Positions 17,917 through 27,931 of a stretch of 34,445 bases of DNA are shown piece after piece; positions within the stretch are counted from its first letter, which is position 1; each line of letters starts with the position of its first letter. The stretch covers positions 1-34,445 of the forward strand of contig JAICZD010000004.1 in assembly GCA_025933855.1 (NCBI GenBank), read 5' to 3'. Below the pieces are notes generated by a model that was given only the letters and a program-made list of their open reading frames with translations, did no database searches and was not told the DNA's origin. Both the position numbers and the translations under genes were made by a program. The stretch comes from Modestobacter sp. (GTDB lineage Bacteria > Actinomycetota > Actinomycetes > Mycobacteriales > Geodermatophilaceae).

Positions 17917-18681
17917 TCAGCCGGCGGACCGGCGCGCGGCGTTGGCCTGGACGGCGGTGCTCACGTACTCCGCGAGCCCGGGCGCGATCTGCTCGTAGTG
18001 GGCGGTGAACCGCTCGTCCTCCACGTACATCCGGCCCAGCCCCGCGTGCATCTCCGGCGGGCAGTCGTAGAAGTTGCGGCTGATCTGCTGCCGGTGCTCC
18101 TCGGCCAGGTCCATCGCCGCGGGCGAGTCGGCCGGAACGCCGTCCGCGAGGGCCGCCGCGAACCGGCGCTCGACGTCCTCACCCTCGGCCTTGATCCGCA
18201 CCCAGTCGTCCTTGGTGTACGCCGACGTCCGCCGCTGGGACTGCGCCCATGCCTCGGTGTCGCACCAGCGCTCCTCGGCCTCGGCCTGGTACTCCTCCGA
18301 GAACCCGTCGCCGAAGACCTCGAACCGTTCCTCCGGGGTCAGCGAGATACCCATCTGCCGTGCCTCCATCTCCTTCTCCACGGCCGCGACCATGGCCTGG
18401 GTTCGCTCGAGCCGCTCCCGCAGCAGCCGGTGCTGCCGGCGCAGGTGCGCCGCCGGGTCGGCGTCGGGGTCGTCCAGCAGGGTCGCGACCTCCTCGAGGG
18501 GGAACCCGAGCTCGCGGTAGACCAGCACCTGCTGCAGCCGGTCCAGGTCGCGCAGGTCGTAGCTGCGGTAACCCGCGGACGTGCGCTCGCTGGGCCGGAC
18601 CAGGCCGATCCGGTCGTAGTGGTGCAGGGTGCGCACCGTCACGCCGGCCAGCCGGGCCAGCTCGCCCACCGTCCAGCTCAT
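17917..18681 (-). CDS. MerR-family regulator with TipAS-like C-terminal domain
   Basis: MSWTVGELARLAGVTVRTLHHYDRIGLVRPSERTSAGYRSYDLRDLDRLQQVLVYRELGF; C-terminal AYTKDDWVRIKAEGEDVERRFAAAL...FYDCPPEMHAGLGRMYVEDERFTAHYEQIAPGLAEYVSTAV. Confidence 0.93.
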   Translation of the reverse strand: MSWTVGELARLAGVTVRTLHHYDRIGLVRPSERTSAGYRSYDLRDLDRLQQVLVYRELGFPLEEVATLLDDPDADPAAHLRRQHRLLRERLERTQAMVAAVEKEMEARQMGISLTPEERFEVFGDGFSEEYQAEAEERWCDTEAWAQSQRRTSAYTKDDWVRIKAEGEDVERRFAAALADGVPADSPAAMDLAEEHRQQISRNFYDCPPEMHAGLGRMYVEDERFTAHYEQIAPGLAEYVSTAVQANAARRSAG

Positions 18682-18713
18682 CCCTCCCCCTCTCCCTTCT
18701 TCGGACGGCCACC

Positions 18714-18744
18714 AGCAGACAGCCTGACGTCGCGTCAGGGTCAA
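18714..18744 (-). promoter_or_regulatory. MerR-type promoter/operator: dyad inside a long -35/-10 spacer
   Basis: Minus strand TTGACC (18744-18739), dyad CCTGACG-CGA-CGTCAGG (18723-18739 on the plus strand), weak -10 candidate TCTGCT at 18719-18714 giving a 19-nt spacer. Confidence 0.65.
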
Positions 18745-18759
18745 GCACGTTCCGTCCCG

Positions 18760-18785
18760 CGGGCAGGAATGGGCATTTCTGCCCG
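18760..18785. promoter_or_regulatory. Near-perfect 26-bp palindrome upstream of the haloalkane dehalogenase gene
   Basis: CGGGCAGGAATG GG CATTTCTGCCCG, arms match 11/12. Confidence 0.65.
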
Positions 18786-18825
18786 GCGTGATTGGCAGGG
18801 CGCGGCCGCGGGGCACTCCTCGAGC

Positions 18826-19722
18826 ATGGCCGCCGACCGGAGTCCCGTGCCCGCCGCCGACCCCCGTCCGCGGTCCCGGGTGCGTGTCGAGGACCAGGAG
18901 ATGGCCTACGTCGAGACCGGCGAAGGGGATCCGATCGTCTTCCTGCACGGCAACCCCACGTCGTCCTACCTGTGGCGGAACGTGATCCCGCATGTGCAGC
19001 ACCTCGGGCGGTGCATCGCGCCGGACCTGATCGGCATGGGGGAGTCCGGCAAGCTCCCCGACCCCGGGCCCGGCACCTACTCCTTCGCCACCCACGCCCG
19101 CTTCCTGGCCGGGTTCCTCACCGCGGTGCGGGCCACCGAGCGGGTCACCCTGGTGCTGCACGACTGGGGGTCGGCGCTGGGCTTCGACTGGGCATCCCGG
19201 CACCCCGGCGCGGTGCGCGGCATCGCGTTCACCGAGGCGATCGTCACGCCGCTGCTCTGGGCGGACTGGCCGCGCGAGGGGAAGCGCATCTTCCAGGCCA
19301 TGCGCGGCGAGGACGGCGAGCGCCGGGTGCTGGAGGACAACGTGTTCGTCGAGCGCATCCTGCCGGCGTCGGTGCAGCGCGGGCTGTCGCCGGAGGCGCA
19401 CGAGCGGTATCGCGCACCGTTCCGGGAGCCCACCGACCGCTGGCCGACGCTGGAGTGGCCGCGGCAGATCCCCATCCAGAACGTGCCACCGGACATGCAC
19501 GACCTCGTCGACCACTACGGCCGCTGGCTGGCCACCACGCAGGTGCCCAAGCTGTTCCTCGATGCCGAACCGGGGTTCCTGCTGGTGGGCCGCCAGCGGA
19601 GGGTCGTCCGGCGCTGGCCGGCGCTCACGGAGGTCACCGTGCCGGGATCGCACTTCGTCCCCGAGGACTCACCCGACGAGATCGGCCAGGCGCTCGCCCG
19701 GTGGATCCGGACGCTGACCTGA
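18826..19722 (+). CDS. dhaA: Haloalkane dehalogenase (HLD-II-like, DhaA/LinB type)
   Basis: HGNPTSSYLWRNVIPHV, VLHDWGSALGFDWASRHPGAVRGIAFTEAI, GSHFVPEDSPDEIG: Asp nucleophile, Asn/Trp halide-binding residues, Glu and His positions. Confidence 0.9.
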   Translation: MAADRSPVPAADPRPRSRVRVEDQEMAYVETGEGDPIVFLHGNPTSSYLWRNVIPHVQHLGRCIAPDLIGMGESGKLPDPGPGTYSFATHARFLAGFLTAVRATERVTLVLHDWGSALGFDWASRHPGAVRGIAFTEAIVTPLLWADWPREGKRIFQAMRGEDGERRVLEDNVFVERILPASVQRGLSPEAHERYRAPFREPTDRWPTLEWPRQIPIQNVPPDMHDLVDHYGRWLATTQVPKLFLDAEPGFLLVGRQRRVVRRWPALTEVTVPGSHFVPEDSPDEIGQALARWIRTLT

Positions 19723-21084: not shown

Positions 21085-21235
21085 ATGCAGAGGTGAGCCT
21101 CCGACCGGCAGCGCACCGACGGGTGGACTGCAGGGCCGAAGGTCTCGCCCACCCGCGCCGCGGCGCGGGCCCGCTGACCGGGTGCACCAGCGCACCAGCA
21201 TGTCGACCAGCGGTCGGGGGGCTACTCCCCTTCTC
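21085..21235 (-). ncRNA. yybP-ykoY (manganese) riboswitch
   Basis: Minus strand shows GAAGGGGAGTAGC (21221-21230 core), GGTCAGCGGGCCCGC, GGTGGGCGAGACCTTCGGCC and the closing arm GGCTCACCTCTGC (about 21090-21099), which pairs with AGGGGAGTAGCC; lies upstream of a GDT1-family gene. Confidence 0.88.
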
Positions 21236-22436
21236 GGTCCGCCAGCCTAGCCGATGCCCCGGGGAAGGCTGCTCCGGGGAAGGCTGCGTGCGCCGCGGCG
21301 GTCGCGGCCCGCAGCACCTCCTTGACCGGCAGCTGCAGGGTGGCGGCCAGCGCGGCCACGTCGTCGAACTCGACGCTCACGTTGACCAGCCGGCCGGACG
21401 AGCGGGCCAGCTTGACCCCGATCCGGCCGCCGAGCACCGTCACACTGTCCTCGGTGCGGTCCAGCGCGACCTTGTCCACCGGCTGCCGGCGCAGCCCGAT
21501 GGTCGAGGTGGCGGCGAACAGCACCTCCTGGACGGCGTCCACCGCGGCGGGCGGGCACAGCACCGACAGGGTGTGCGCCGGGCGGCCCTTCTTCATCAGG
21601 ATCGGGGTCAGCCAGGCGTCCGAGGCGCCGGCGCCCAGCAGGTCGGTGAGCACACCCGGCCACACCCGGGGGTCCAGGTCGTCGACGTTGGCCGCCAGCA
21701 GCAGCGCTCCGGCCGGGCCGGCCGGTTCCCCCAGCACCAGGCGCAGCAGGTTGGGCAGCTCGGCGGGGTCCCGCCCGCCGGCGCCGCTGCCCACCCGCTG
21801 CACCCGCATCGGCGGCAGCGTCGTCCACTCGTCGACGCAAGCGGCCAGCAACGCCGCGCCGGTGGGCGTGCAGGTCTCCGCCGGCACCGGCCCGGCCAGC
21901 ACCGGAACGCCGGCCAGCAGCTCGAGCACCGCCGGACCGGGCACCGGCACCACGCCGTGCGCGCCGCGGGCCGAGCCGCTGCCCAGGGCCACCGGTGAGG
22001 CGGTGAGCCGGTCCAGGGCGAGGTGGGCGAAGCCGGCGACGACCCCGACGACGTCGGCCAGGGCGTCGAGCGCGCCGACCTCGTGGAAGTGCACGTCCTC
22101 GGCGGGAACGCGGTGCACGCGCCCCTCCGCGACGGCCAGCCGCTGGAAGACCGCCAGCGCGCCGTCGCGGACCGCGGCCGGCAGCGGCGCGGCGGACAGC
22201 AGGGCCCGGACGTCGGCCCAGGTGCGGTGCACGTCGCTGGGCGGGGTGTGCACGTGCACCCGGGTGCCGCCGAGCCCGTGCCGGGTGACCGGCTCGGCGG
22301 TCAGCGTCACCGGCTCGACCGGGAGCGCGGCGACGGCAGCGGCGAGCACCTCCAGCGGCACTCCGGCGTCGACCAGCGCGCCGAGCAACATGTCCCCGCT
22401 CGCCCCGGCCGCCAGATCCAGCCACCCGATCGTCAC
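21222..22436 (-). CDS. larC: Nickel pincer cofactor biosynthesis protein LarC (single continuous LarC1+LarC2 ORF)
   Basis: WLDLAAGASGDMLLGALVDAG, EDVHFHEVGALDALADVVG, ETCTPTGAALL, NVDDLDPRVWPGVLTDLLGAGASDAWLTPILMKKGRPAHTLSVLC. Confidence 0.92.
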   Translation of the reverse strand: MTIGWLDLAAGASGDMLLGALVDAGVPLEVLAAAVAALPVEPVTLTAEPVTRHGLGGTRVHVHTPPSDVHRTWADVRALLSAAPLPAAVRDGALAVFQRLAVAEGRVHRVPAEDVHFHEVGALDALADVVGVVAGFAHLALDRLTASPVALGSGSARGAHGVVPVPGPAVLELLAGVPVLAGPVPAETCTPTGAALLAACVDEWTTLPPMRVQRVGSGAGGRDPAELPNLLRLVLGEPAGPAGALLLAANVDDLDPRVWPGVLTDLLGAGASDAWLTPILMKKGRPAHTLSVLCPPAAVDAVQEVLFAATSTIGLRRQPVDKVALDRTEDSVTVLGGRIGVKLARSSGRLVNVSVEFDDVAALAATLQLPVKEVLRAATAAAHAAFPGAAFPGASARLADREGE

Positions 22437-22453: not shown

Positions 22454-23065
22454 ATGGGGTGGTTCGACGAACCGGGCGCCTGGAGCCGGTACAACGCCGG
22501 CCAGGAGCAGCGCCCGCCGCGGCCGCTGGTGCAGGTGCTGCTCGAGCACGCGGGGGACGGCGCCGGCCGGCCGGCGCTGGACCTCGGCTTCGGCGCCGGG
22601 GTGGAGACCGCCCGGCTGCTGCGCCGGGGCTGGCGGGTGCTGGCCGTCGACGCCGACCCGGCGGCCGGGCCGTCCCTGCTCCGCCGGCTGCCGGCCGGGG
22701 ACGCCGCCCGGCTCACCGTCCGCACGCAGGACTTCGCCGCGCTCGACCGGCTGCCCGAGCTGCACCTCGTGCACGCCGCCTGGTCGCTGCCCTACGCCGG
22801 CCGGCACCTGCCGCGGGTGTGGGAGGTGCTGATGGCCGCCCTGCTGCCGGGTGGCTGGCTGGCGTGCGACCTGTTCGGCGAGCGGGACACCACGGCGGAC
22901 GCCGACGACATCGCGAAGCTCACCGATCGGGAGGTGGAGGAGCTGCTGCGCGGGGTGGACGTCGTCCACCGGGAGACCCTGGAGGTGGACGGGACGGCGT
23001 TCACCGGCCCGCAGCACTGGCACGTGCACTCGGTGGTGGCCCGTCGGCTGCCCCATGGGGACTGA
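22454..23065 (+). CDS. Class I SAM-dependent methyltransferase (TehB-like)
   Basis: MGWFDEPGAWSRYNAGQEQRPPRPLVQVLLEH...ALDLGFGAGVETARLLRRGWRVLAVDADPAA motif I. Confidence 0.8.
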   Translation: MGWFDEPGAWSRYNAGQEQRPPRPLVQVLLEHAGDGAGRPALDLGFGAGVETARLLRRGWRVLAVDADPAAGPSLLRRLPAGDAARLTVRTQDFAALDRLPELHLVHAAWSLPYAGRHLPRVWEVLMAALLPGGWLACDLFGERDTTADADDIAKLTDREVEELLRGVDVVHRETLEVDGTAFTGPQHWHVHSVVARRLPHGD

Positions 23066-23094: not shown

Positions 23095-26000
23095 CTACCT
23101 CGCGGTGCGGCGGGCGATGCGGGCGGCGAAGACGCCGGCCGACCAGCCGTTGTCGATGTTGCTGACCACCACGCCCGGCGCAGCCGAATTCAGCATGGTC
23201 AGCAGCGCGCTGAACCCGCCGAACGCGTTGCCCTGACCGGTGGAGGTCGGCACGGCGACGATCGGCACGTCGGTCAGCCCGCTGATCACGCTGGCCAGGG
23301 CGGCGTCCAGACCCGCCACGACGACCAGGCAGTCGGCCTCGGTGAGCAGCGAGCGGTCGGTCAGCAGCGGCCGGATCCGGCTGCCGCCGACGTCGTCGAC
23401 CCGGACGACCTCGGTGCCGGTGACCCGGGCGACGAAGGCGGCCTCGGCCGCGATCGGGGTGTCGCCGCTGCTGGCGCAGAGCACGCCCACCCGGCCCACC
23501 GGTTCCGGCAGCGGGCCGACGGCGGCGGACATCGCGGCGGCGTCCATCGTGGTGTACGCGTCGTGCTCGCTGGCCAGCGCGACCAGCGTGTCGGCGCCGG
23601 CCCGGACCACCACGGCGGGACGGTCGGGGAACTCCCGTCGGGCCGCACGCACCAGGGCCAGGACCTGCTCGGTGCTGCGCCCGGTGCCCCAGATGATGTC
23701 CGGCCCGAACGAGGCGGTCTCGTTCGGCACGGGAACGCCCGCCGGCGCCACGGGTACCGGCGTGCCTGCGGCTGCGGTGACCTGCCCGGTCGCGGAGCCG
23801 GTCACCGTGCTGGCGGGGGCCACCGGGGTTACCGGGGCTACCGGGGCCAGCGGCGGGATGGCGGCGGGGCCGACCGTCCGGCCGGCCGTGCGCGGCGGGC
23901 CGAAGAGCTCGTCCAGCGGGCTGCGGGGGCGCACCGGCTCGTCGGCCGGGGGCTCGACCAGCAGCGGGGCGAAGCCACCGGCGTCGTCGGCGGGGTCGTG
24001 CTCCGGCCGGTCGGCGGGGATCTCGTCCAGCGGGTGCGCGCTCACGGCAGCGACCCTAACCGCCGGCGCAGCCGTTCCCGGGACCTCGGCGGCGGTCGTG
24101 TCGGGGCTGCTCACCGCACCCTCCGGCATCGTGCCGTCGAGCGCCGTGCCATCCACGACGGTGCCCTCGACGGCGAGGGCGGGGCCGTCGCCGGCGCGGG
24201 TCTGGGTCACTCCGGACAGCCGCACGACGCGGTCCCGGCCGCCGCGCTTGGCCTCGTACAGCACCCCGTCGGCGGCGGCGAACAGCGTTCGCCGGTCGTC
24301 ACCGCGGGCGGCCGAGGCGACGCCCACGCTGATCGTGACCGGGACCTCGACGTCCAGGGCCGACCAGTCGTGCGCGGCGATCGCGCGGCGGATGCGTTCC
24401 ATCGCCCGCTCCGCCTGCTCGGCGGTGGTGTCCGGCAGCAGGATGACGAACTCGTCCCCGGCCCAGCGGCACACCTCGTCGGTGTCCCGGCAGCCATCGA
24501 CGAGCAGCTGCCCGACCGCCCGCAGCACGGCATCGCCGCCGGGATGGCCGGCGGCGTCGTTGATCGACTTGAACCGGTCGATGTCGACGACCGCCAGCGC
24601 GGGCGCGCCGCAGCCGAGCAGGCCGTCCAGCCGGGCCTCGGCGTAGCGGCGGTTGGGGAGGTGGGTCAGCGGGTCCTCGTAGGCCTGCCGGCGCAGCTGC
24701 CCGGCGGCCCGCTCGGTCTCCAGCAGGCTCTTGCGCCGGCCGAACAGCTCCACCCAGCGGGTGCGCCGCTCGTCGACCCGGTCCAGCTCGTCGGCGAGGT
24801 AGGCCTGCAGGTACGGCAGCGCGCGGGCCGCGTCGTCCAGCTCGGCGTGCAGGGTGCACAGCTCCCGCAGCGCCGCCCGGCGCACCCGCGGCAGGCCGTT
24901 CTCGGTGGCCAGGGCCAGGGCGGTGGCCAGGTGGTCGTCGGCCGCCGGCCCGTCGCCGGCCCGGCGCCGCGCCCGGCCCCGCCCCCGCTCCGCGGCGGCG
25001 CGCCGGGCCCGGTCCTCCGGCGCGGGGGCCGCGGTCCCCCCCGACCGCAGCAGCGCGACCGCCGCGGGATGGTCCCCGAGCCCGACCAGCGCCCAGCCGT
25101 GCACCACCTGCGCGTCGAGCACGCCGGGATCACCGGCCGTCAGCCGGCCGAGCGCCCGGACGGCGAGGTCGCGGGCCCGCGCGAAGTGCGGCGCGGCGGC
25201 CTCGGGGCCGCCGTCCTCGAGCAGGCCCTCGCCGATCTCCGCGCAGAGCGCGGCGAGCTGGGTGGCGGCGTCGGCGGCGAGCGCGCGCGGACGGGGCCCG
25301 GACGCGCCCGCGGTGATCGCCAGCTCGGCAGCGGCCTCCGCGGCGTCCGCGGCGCGGCGCTGGTAGTCCAGGGCCAGCGGCATCAGCTCGAGGTCGGCCA
25401 GGACGCCGGCCAGCGAGCCGAGGGTGTGCACGAGCAGCGGGGTCGCCGGCAGGTTCGGGTCCAGCAGGCTCGCGGCCTCCACCGCCTCGTCCATGGCCGC
25501 GTCGACCCGGCGGGACAGCAGCTCGATCCGGGCGTGCCGGACCAGCCCCGCGGCGCGCTGCAGGTCGTCGTCCTGACCGTCGAAGGCCGCCCGGGCGGAG
25601 CGGACCAGCGCGATGGCCCGCGCGGCATGGCCGGCGGACTCGGCTCGGGCTCGGGCGTGGGCGTGGAGGTCGGCGTCGGAGTCGGACGCGCCGGCGTCGG
25701 GCCGGTCGCCGTGCAGCTCGGCGACGCCCTCGTGCAGGTCCAGCGCGCCGTCCTGCTCCGGGCCGCCCTCGGTCAGCGGCTCGCCGAGCAGCGAGTAGCC
25801 GGCCAGCCGCAACCGGCGTACCAGCAGCTCCGCCCGCAGCGTGTCGGCCCAGGCGCGGGCCAGCGAGGTCAGCGGCGCGCCGCCCAGCTCACCGACCGCG
25901 GTGGTGTGCGGCGGCAGGGAGCTGTCGATGTCGGACAGCAGCGCCTCGGCGGTGTCCAGTTGCCAGGTGGCCAGCGCCGAGCTCACCTGCTGGTGCAGGA

Positions 26001-26127
26001 CCCCGGGTGGCACGAGCGCACTGTGCCTGGTTCGCGCCGCGGAGTCACGCACCGCGCCGGTGGCACGCCGGGCACGACCCGGGGTGCCGGTCGAGCTGCG
26101 CTGCCCGCGGGGGGTGCGCAGTGTCAC
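23095..26127 (-). CDS. Multidomain protein: helical-repeat-like N-terminus, GGDEF (AGDEF) domain, low-complexity linker, C-terminal LarB/PurE-like domain
   Basis: One uninterrupted 1010-aa frame: DPLTHLPNRRYAEARL...RDTDEVCRWAGDEFVILLP, then about 160 aa of Pro/Ala/Val/Thr-rich linker, then FGPDIIWGTGRSTEQVLALV...GVLCASSGDTPIAAEAAFVARVTGTEVVRVDDVGG...VVVAGLDAALASVISGLTDVPIVAVPTSTGQGNAFGGFSALLTMLNSAAPGVVVSNIDNGWSAGVFAARIAR. Confidence 0.87.
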   Translation of the reverse strand: MTLRTPRGQRSSTGTPGRARRATGAVRDSAARTRHSALVPPGVLHQQVSSALATWQLDTAEALLSDIDSSLPPHTTAVGELGGAPLTSLARAWADTLRAELLVRRLRLAGYSLLGEPLTEGGPEQDGALDLHEGVAELHGDRPDAGASDSDADLHAHARARAESAGHAARAIALVRSARAAFDGQDDDLQRAAGLVRHARIELLSRRVDAAMDEAVEAASLLDPNLPATPLLVHTLGSLAGVLADLELMPLALDYQRRAADAAEAAAELAITAGASGPRPRALAADAATQLAALCAEIGEGLLEDGGPEAAAPHFARARDLAVRALGRLTAGDPGVLDAQVVHGWALVGLGDHPAAVALLRSGGTAAPAPEDRARRAAAERGRGRARRRAGDGPAADDHLATALALATENGLPRVRRAALRELCTLHAELDDAARALPYLQAYLADELDRVDERRTRWVELFGRRKSLLETERAAGQLRRQAYEDPLTHLPNRRYAEARLDGLLGCGAPALAVVDIDRFKSINDAAGHPGGDAVLRAVGQLLVDGCRDTDEVCRWAGDEFVILLPDTTAEQAERAMERIRRAIAAHDWSALDVEVPVTISVGVASAARGDDRRTLFAAADGVLYEAKRGGRDRVVRLSGVTQTRAGDGPALAVEGTVVDGTALDGTMPEGAVSSPDTTAAEVPGTAAPAVRVAAVSAHPLDEIPADRPEHDPADDAGGFAPLLVEPPADEPVRPRSPLDELFGPPRTAGRTVGPAAIPPLAPVAPVTPVAPASTVTGSATGQVTAAAGTPVPVAPAGVPVPNETASFGPDIIWGTGRSTEQVLALVRAARREFPDRPAVVVRAGADTLVALASEHDAYTTMDAAAMSAAVGPLPEPVGRVGVLCASSGDTPIAAEAAFVARVTGTEVVRVDDVGGSRIRPLLTDRSLLTEADCLVVVAGLDAALASVISGLTDVPIVAVPTSTGQGNAFGGFSALLTMLNSAAPGVVVSNIDNGWSAGVFAARIARRTAR

Positions 26128-26158: not shown

Positions 26159-27931
26159 TCACGAGGCGACCTCGCCGTCGTCGAACGCCCAGCCCGGCGG
26201 TCGGGTTGCCCGGCTGCCCAGCACGTCGGCGACCAGCTGGTCGACCGACGCGTGCAGCGCGGGGGCAGGCCCGCGCGGCCGCGCCGCCGGCGGTCCGGTG
26301 GAGCCGGCCCGGACCCGGTTGCGCCCGCTGCGCTTGGCCGCGAACAGGTGCAGGTCGGCGGCGTCGAACAGCGTCCGCCACGACCCGGCCGTGCCGGGGG
26401 AGCCGGGGACGGCGGTCGCGACGCCGATGCTGACCGTCAACGGCCGGGACAGCTCCGCCGCGGCCCAGTCGTGGTCGGCGACGGCGGTCCGCAGCCGCTC
26501 CATGGCCACCACGGCCTGCGGCTCGGCGGTGGACGGCAGCAGCACCAGGAACTCGTCGCCGGCCCAGCGGTAGACCTCGTCGCCGTGCCGGCTGTGCCGC
26601 CGCAGCAGTTCCGCCACCCGGCGCAGGGCCACGTCGCCGTGCAGGTGGGAATGGGCGTCGTTGACCGCCTTGAAGCCGTCGACGTCGACCACGGCCAGCG
26701 ACACCGGCCCGCGGTGGAAGTCCAGCTCGGCCAGCCGTCGCTCGGCGCTGCGCCGGTTGCCCAGCCCGGTGAGCGGGTCCTCCAGGGCGTGCCGGCGCAG
26801 CACCGCCGTCTGCCGCTGCGCGTCGTGCAACCGGCTGCGCCGCACGAACATCTCCGCCCACACCTCCTGGCCGCGCAGGTGCACCCGGGTGGTCTCGGCG
26901 CGGTAGGCATCCAGCCAGTGCAGCGCCTCGACGGTGCGGCCCGCCGCCGCCGTGGTCTGCCCGAGCTCGAGCAGGCACTGCCGGTAGCGACGGTGGTCCT
27001 CGACGGCGGCGAAGGCGCCGGCGGCGGCGACCAGCAACTCGGTGGCCTCTTCCTCGGCCGGCTGCCGGGCGGCGCCGGGGGCTTGCAGCCGGACCAGCAG
27101 CCGGGCGAGCACCAGGTCCGCGTAGCCCAGCAGCCACAGGCCGCCGTCGGCCGCCACCCGGCCGCGGACCCGGCGCAGCGGGGCCAGCGCGTCCTGCGGC
27201 CGGCCGGTGAGGCTCATCGCCCAGGCGGTGACGACGGCCAGCAGGTCCTCGTCCGGCTCCGGCGGCGTCCAGGACAGCTCCCGCGCAGCACTCGCGCAGG
27301 TCAACGCCGTCTGCGCGAGATCGCGCGACCGCCGCTCGTCCCCCCGGCGGTGCACCGTCTGGGCCAGCTCCGCGTGCTGCTGGGCGCACAGCCGCAGCAG
27401 CTGCCAGCGGTCGTCCAGGCCCGGCAGCGCCTGCGCCACCCGTGATCCGCGCAGCGCCTGGTCGGCGGCGAGCTCCTCCAGGTCCAGCAGGGTGAGGGCG
27501 AGCGACAGCCAGGAGTGCGCCTGGTGCAGCGCACGGGTGGGTTCCGCGCCGCCGAGCTGGTCGGCCAGCAGGCTGGCGTCCACGGCCAGGCGCAGAGCGG
27601 CGTCCAGCCGGTCCGCCCCCACCTCGACGTGGGCCAGGTAGGCCAGGGTCAACGCCCGCTCGGCCGTGGGCGGGCAGTGGTCCAGAGCGGCGCGCGCGGC
27701 GGTCACGGCGACCGCCGCGGCGTCCGGGTCGCCGTCCAGGAGCCGCGCCCGAGCGGTGAAGGCGCTGCCCCAGGCGTCCCAGTGCGGCCGACCGGTGCCG
27801 GAGAAGGAGCCCGCCACCCGGTCGAACTCGTCGGCGAAGCCACGGGCGTCCGGCACGCCGCTGGCGGCCAGCAGCTGCCAGCGGGCCGACTCGAGCGCCT
27901 GCTCGTCGACGGCGTCGGACCGCGGGGTCAC
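26159..27931 (-). CDS. GGDEF (AGDEF) diguanylate cyclase-like protein with TPR-like N-terminus
   Basis: DPLTGLGNRRSAERRLAELDF...AVVDVDGFKAVNDAHSHLHGDVALRRVAELLRRHSRHGDEVYRWAGDEFLVLLPS; GTG preceded by GGAGGAG. Confidence 0.9.
   Translation of the reverse strand: MTPRSDAVDEQALESARWQLLAASGVPDARGFADEFDRVAGSFSGTGRPHWDAWGSAFTARARLLDGDPDAAAVAVTAARAALDHCPPTAERALTLAYLAHVEVGADRLDAALRLAVDASLLADQLGGAEPTRALHQAHSWLSLALTLLDLEELAADQALRGSRVAQALPGLDDRWQLLRLCAQQHAELAQTVHRRGDERRSRDLAQTALTCASAARELSWTPPEPDEDLLAVVTAWAMSLTGRPQDALAPLRRVRGRVAADGGLWLLGYADLVLARLLVRLQAPGAARQPAEEEATELLVAAAGAFAAVEDHRRYRQCLLELGQTTAAAGRTVEALHWLDAYRAETTRVHLRGQEVWAEMFVRRSRLHDAQRQTAVLRRHALEDPLTGLGNRRSAERRLAELDFHRGPVSLAVVDVDGFKAVNDAHSHLHGDVALRRVAELLRRHSRHGDEVYRWAGDEFLVLLPSTAEPQAVVAMERLRTAVADHDWAAAELSRPLTVSIGVATAVPGSPGTAGSWRTLFDAADLHLFAAKRSGRNRVRAGSTGPPAARPRGPAPALHASVDQLVADVLGSRATRPPGWAFDDGEVAS

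Follow-up and report, generated by a model that had tools for sequence, protein, structure and literature searches.

A LarB-like domain without the catalytic residues of LarB, joined to a predicted diguanylate cyclase in Geodermatophilaceae

The LarB domain normally starts nickel cofactor synthesis. In a Modestobacter genome of the Geodermatophilaceae, a family of soil and stone bacteria, one gene joins such a domain to a GGDEF diguanylate cyclase, and alanine stands where LarB proteins carry a cysteine. Is the fused domain still an enzyme, and if not, what has kept it in the protein? The window analysed here is the whole 34,445-nucleotide stretch of contig JAICZD010000004.1. The host genome is a metagenome-assembled genome and 70% complete, but the main statements are based on relatives whose genomes are near-complete. 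The analysis computed homology, fold, residue loss, conservation, selection and co-occurrence.

The fusion gene and its neighbours

The fusion protein is ordered from a helical region through the GGDEF domain and a disordered linker to the LarB-like domain. Amino acid (aa) positions are counted from the GTG start as residue 1.

23095..26127, minus strand: fusion gene, 1010 aa (open reading frame with GTG start at 26127)
24739..26001, minus strand: N-terminal helical-solenoid region, aa 43-463 (AF2 model)
24229..24684, minus strand: GGDEF diguanylate cyclase domain, aa 482-633 (Pfam E 3.9e-38, 131 bits)
24478..24489, minus strand: inhibitory-site motif RDTD (RxxD), aa 547-550 (conservation in 28 fusions)
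24448..24462, minus strand: active-site motif AGDEF, aa 556-560 (conservation in 28 fusions)
23704..24210, minus strand: low-complexity disordered linker, aa 640-808 (pLDDT about 30 in AF2, dN/dS 0.77)
23107..23703, minus strand: LarB-like domain, aa 809-1007 (phmmer to PDB 7mj0, and Foldseek)

The helical region has pLDDT values mostly of 75-95 and is TPR-like by look; a Pfam search of the fusion protein gave no match within it (aa 43-463). A long helix (aa 433-483) of the AF2 model runs into the GGDEF domain. The cyclase part is predicted from its sequence to be active. Among the 28 fusions compared, A556, G557, D558 and E559 are invariant and F560 is nearly so, and R547 and D550 are invariant in the RxxD I-site, which lies five residues ahead of AGDEF.

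The C-terminal domain matches Lactobacillus plantarum LarB (PDB 7mj0) from end to end, with a phmmer E value of 3.8e-36. The NCBIfam LarB model covers aa 809-1006 at 166.5 bits, under its curated cut-off of 175, and the Pfam AIRC model matches aa 880-1006 at 37.5 bits, with a cut-off of 30. Modelled alone the domain has a mean pLDDT of 77, and a Foldseek search with this model returns LarB structures as the top PDB matches (TM 0.68-0.76).

Of 37 relatives, 36 have an uninterrupted reading frame through the linker, as do all 36 named loci. One single-contig genome (G170, locus L049) has a slip in the C/G-rich linker, either an error or a real frameshift, that puts the LarB-like domain in a different frame from the GGDEF part. 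Separate translation of the LarB-like domain from an internal start was considered and rejected, the linker having no conserved start codon. A near-complete genome (G260) with no LarB-like domain in view was likewise set aside as a case of natural loss, its gene running into a contig end.

Three genes neighbour the fusion.

21222..22436, minus strand: LarC (PF01969, E 5e-128)
22454..23065, plus strand: small methyltransferase-like gene (Methyltransf_25, 27.7 bits, cut-off 27)
26159..27931, minus strand: tandem GGDEF gene without a LarB domain (PF00990, E 5e-30)

This LarC is the only LarC match in the host genome. The methyltransferase-like gene, encoded on the strand opposite to both, separates the fusion from larC and occupies the same place in locus L135. 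In nearly all relatives the stretch immediately upstream of the fusion has a GGDEF match with about 53% identity, and the tandem pair suggests that the cyclase was duplicated before or around the fusion. Elsewhere in the window, an open reading frame with MerR DNA-binding and TipAS antibiotic-recognition domains (17917-19653, minus strand) overlaps an alpha/beta hydrolase-like open reading frame on the opposite strand (17998-19722); it is likely that one alone of the two is real.

Loss of the LarB catalytic residues

Residues were matched through the phmmer sequence alignment to L. plantarum LarB (PDB 7mj0). The title of Rankin 2021, cited in PMC11796402 and PMC9283937, names a cysteinyl-pyridine intermediate for LarB, and we take the roles of Cys221, Ser127 and the other LarB residues as background, in part from the titles of papers and PDB entries (S127A variant complexes). 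Four sites are altered in the fusion.

23461..23475, minus strand: degraded AGTSD block, aa 885-889 (ASSGD), with Gly888 for Ser127
23368..23394, minus strand: degraded DVGVAGxHR block, aa 912-920, with Arg919-Pro920 for His158-Arg159
23233..23235, minus strand: Gln965 for Tyr204
23182..23184, minus strand: Ala982 for the catalytic Cys221 (phmmer alignment to 7mj0)

The minus-strand open reading frame reads LLTMLNSAAPGVVVSNIDNG, where the codon at 23184-23182 is GCT and encodes Ala982; ASSGDTPIAAEA and DDVGGSRIRPLL are also present in it. An earlier note, made from the letters of this stretch, had proposed that the usual LarB cysteine is alanine here and that the AGTSD and YDVGVAGIHRL blocks are altered, and the alignment bears out both.

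We compared 38 fusions (the window and 37 Geodermatophilaceae genomes) with 61 stand-alone LarBs of the order. At the Cys221 position the fusions have Ala in 28, Thr in three, Ser in three, Pro in two and Gly in two. Because Cys is missing from 38 of 38 fusions and present in 61 of 61 stand-alone LarBs, Ala982 is not a matter of chance or assembly error. The Cys221 equivalent is also kept in 20 more LarBs sampled across the phylum. In a second set of named genomes, from Modestobacter, Blastococcus, Klenkia, Geodermatophilus and Goekera, none of the fusions has Cys at this position; it occurs only in one stand-alone Frankiaceae LarB and in the phylum-wide control read alongside.

The other sites follow the same pattern. 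Ser127 is kept in none of the 38 fusions (Gly or Ala instead), His158 in 11%, Arg159 in none and Tyr204 in none, and four of the 38 have gaps in the DVGVAGxHR block. Stand-alone LarB has 60 positions with a conservation of 95% or more. The fusions retain 27 of these at the 90% level and lack 10 altogether. Most affected are the pocket loops as marked by the analyst, with 9 of 29 such positions retained at 90%, compared with 18 of 31 elsewhere. The equivalents of D128 and E134, the PTS motif and the NID-G core are retained, so some ligand could still bind.

Two other cysteines were considered as substitute nucleophiles and ruled out by their conservation pattern. The earlier note had named the cysteine of VLCAS (Cys884) as a possible replacement; with Cys in 28, Ser in five, Arg in three and a gap in two of the 38 fusions it is not a conserved one. 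Cys933 is present in 37 of 38 fusions and also in 17 of 61 stand-alone LarBs.

The lar pathway, origin and selection

A second, canonical larB, whose presence had been suggested as a check, was found in the host genome on contig C66 (L002:1201-1908), with the reading MLTACAPG and every motif intact. LarE lies about 2 kb away on the same short contig, and a LarA match on contig C164. With this LarB and LarE, the LarC of the window and the LarA match, the host genome has a complete pathway without counting the fusion.

LarB-like, LarC, LarE and LarA proteins were sought in 115 Geodermatophilaceae genomes, and a LarB-like match was found in 114. Co-occurrence was counted in the 94 crown genomes that are at least 90% complete and have the fusion: canonical LarB and LarE are both present in 58, LarB without LarE over the cut-off in one, LarE without LarB in none and neither in 35 (Fisher p 4.7e-25 for the LarB-LarE association, among genomes that are not phylogenetically independent). 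An active fusion should let some genomes drop canonical LarB yet keep LarE; none did, so the fusion is no stand-in for LarB. Twenty-nine of the 94 have no canonical LarB, LarC, LarE or LarA at all. The fusion outlives the lar pathway.

Two further observations concern single genomes or small groups of them. Five near-complete genomes (G201, G106, G194, G210 and G213) have LarC without LarE or canonical LarB, at low LarC scores (312-362 bits, as against about 430), and this LarC may be decaying or repurposed. One genome (G276) has canonical LarB, LarC and LarA together with a LarE match of just 81 residues, possibly a truncated LarE.

In the tree the fused domains form one clade (support 100/100), and its stem has a length of 1.06 changes per site. 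The clade sits among LarBs encoded directly before LarC, including those of deep Geodermatophilaceae genera, and in many genomes the fusion is still followed by LarC. Canonical LarBs of Geodermatophilaceae make up two further clades: those of the first lie next to LarE, those of the second in LarE-LarB-LarC islands. On the best reading, a single fusion event took place ahead of the split among the Geodermatophilaceae crown genera, and the fusion became fixed in them. The tree and the larC synteny favour the LarB-LarC lineage as the parent of the fused domain; this parentage is probable and no stronger, because descent from the LarE-linked LarB is not rejected by the AU test (p 0.114) and the stem is long. 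On the simplest account, the old LarB of a LarB-LarC pair would have joined a neighbouring cyclase gene, itself beside a GGDEF relative, and a second LarB would have kept or taken over the lar pathway. At several loci (L118-L123 and L079) LarE, LarB and LarC form an island of their own; its LarB belongs to another clade, its LarE is just 39-46% like that of the window genome, and such islands look like pathway replacement or transfer.

The LarB-like domain is under purifying selection. Within Modestobacter its dN/dS is 0.15, near that of the GGDEF domain (0.13) and of canonical LarB (0.11), with 0.30 for the helical region and 0.77 for the linker; a pair of Modestobacter genomes that lack all lar genes gives 0.09 for the LarB-like domain. 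About 31 positions are conserved in fusions but not in stand-alone LarB, the strongest mostly outside the loops of the Cys, Ser, His and Tyr sites, and especially in the first helix.

23626..23673, minus strand: first helix of the LarB-like domain, aa 819-834 (TEQVLALVRAARREFP), newly conserved in fusions

There T819, Q821-R827, R830 and P834 are conserved at 97% or more in fusions and below 80% in stand-alone LarB.

Possible roles of the fused domain and comparison with known systems

It is highly probable that the domain is a dead LarB which now serves the cyclase as a non-catalytic part, and its most likely role is a regulatory one. The LarB/PurE fold would have been retained and the NaAD-carboxylase machinery lost. 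The earlier note had held that the domain may not be a working NaAD carboxylase/hydrolase, and the residue losses in all fusions support this reading of the sequence, as do the separate canonical LarB and the absence of any genome with LarE and the fusion alone. Among the roles it offered, a pseudoenzyme is best supported, a ligand sensor is less likely and a PurE-like enzyme finds no support.

For the mechanism, the N-terminal helical region may receive a signal and drive the GGDEF domain by way of the long helix (aa 433-483). The C-terminal LarB fold, tethered by a flexible linker of about 160 residues, would assemble the protein or dock it to a partner and so control GGDEF pairing. LarB assembles into oligomers, GGDEF domains function as pairs, and a PurE octamer is among the structural matches of the domain (PDB title 3oow). 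On the grounds that its relatives oligomerise and GGDEF domains pair, we infer that the dead domain acts by assembly or docking, a proposal that is quite possible and that we make tentatively.

The main rival is the use of the dead domain as a sensor, its pocket binding a pyridine or adenine nucleotide (NaAD, NAD or AMP) without turnover and reporting NAD status to the cyclase. NAD and AMP are found in LarB structures (PDB titles 7mj1 and 7mj0), the key residues of the D128 and E134 equivalents, PTS and NID-G are retained in 97-100% of fusions, and dead enzymes are frequently reused as sensors. However, the fusions differ from one another in the loops round the Cys, Ser, His and Tyr sites, four of the 38 having gaps there, and the strongest new conservation lies mostly off the pocket loops, so that we find sensing unlikely. 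Doubt is greater for the specific form in which the pocket binds NaAD or NAD and gates the cyclase, with c-di-GMP output tracking pyridine-nucleotide status family-wide; if true, a c-di-GMP input domain would have been recruited from nickel-pincer cofactor synthesis.

That the domain is instead a decaying relic, by chance in frame with the cyclase gene, would suit the long, fast stem (1.06) and the scrambled active-site loops, but is very unlikely given a dN/dS of 0.15 against 0.77 in the adjacent linker (0.09 without lar genes), a frame free of stops and frameshifts in 36 of 37 relatives and 31 newly fixed positions. A LarB still working with another nucleophile is scarcely credible: most fusions do have Cys884 near the old Ser loop, and 37 of 38 have Cys933, but Cys884 is Ser, Arg or missing in 10 of 38, Cys933 is not new, LarE never occurs with the fusion alone in the 94 genomes, and Ser127, His158 and Tyr204 are lost as well. 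A new PurE-like or other carboxylase activity is just as improbable, for although PurE proteins are fold relatives and the AIRC score of 37.5 bits is barely above the cut-off of 30, PurE structures rank far under LarB (TM about 0.5), 34 of 38 fusions have no His at the site aligned with that of the PurE SAHR motif, and a genuine PurE (214 bits) is encoded on contig C5 of the host genome.

With the domain read as a non-catalytic part, an enzyme of a rare cofactor pathway would have turned into a signalling component through one fusion, with catalytic residues lost in all members examined. It would have remained under purifying selection, gained a newly conserved surface and outlasted its original pathway. 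For annotation, 'LarB' or 'AIR carboxylase' matches on fusion proteins should be left out of counts of NPN synthesis, and Geodermatophilaceae that have the fusion alone should be scored as pathway-negative.

We found no description of a diguanylate cyclase with a C-terminal LarB-fold module in the literature searched. The nearest known system is LarB itself (NaAD carboxylase/hydrolase, NF033503; PDB 7mj0, 7mj1 and 8soq), which the fused domain resembles in whole-domain homology, predicted fold and the larC that often adjoins the fusion. Unlike LarB, it lacks Cys221, Ser127, His158-Arg159 and Tyr204, falls below the family's curated cut-off, is joined to a cyclase and is no substitute where LarB is absent; 35 of the 94 fusion genomes have no LarE, and 29 of those no LarC either. 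The canonical LarB of the host genome on contig C66 shares the fold and 49% identity (alignment A2), but keeps the Cys and all motifs and shares its contig with LarE. PurE, or AIR carboxylase (PF00731), is alike in superfamily fold and in the weak Pfam match, whereas its SAHR histidine is not kept in fusions and the true PurE is elsewhere in the genome. On the cyclase side, VCA0965, a cyclase with AGDEF that is active, resembles the fusion in having a GGDEF domain with AGDEF and RxxD (PMC3974145); compared with cyclases of this type, the fusion has an added C-terminal LarB-fold module.
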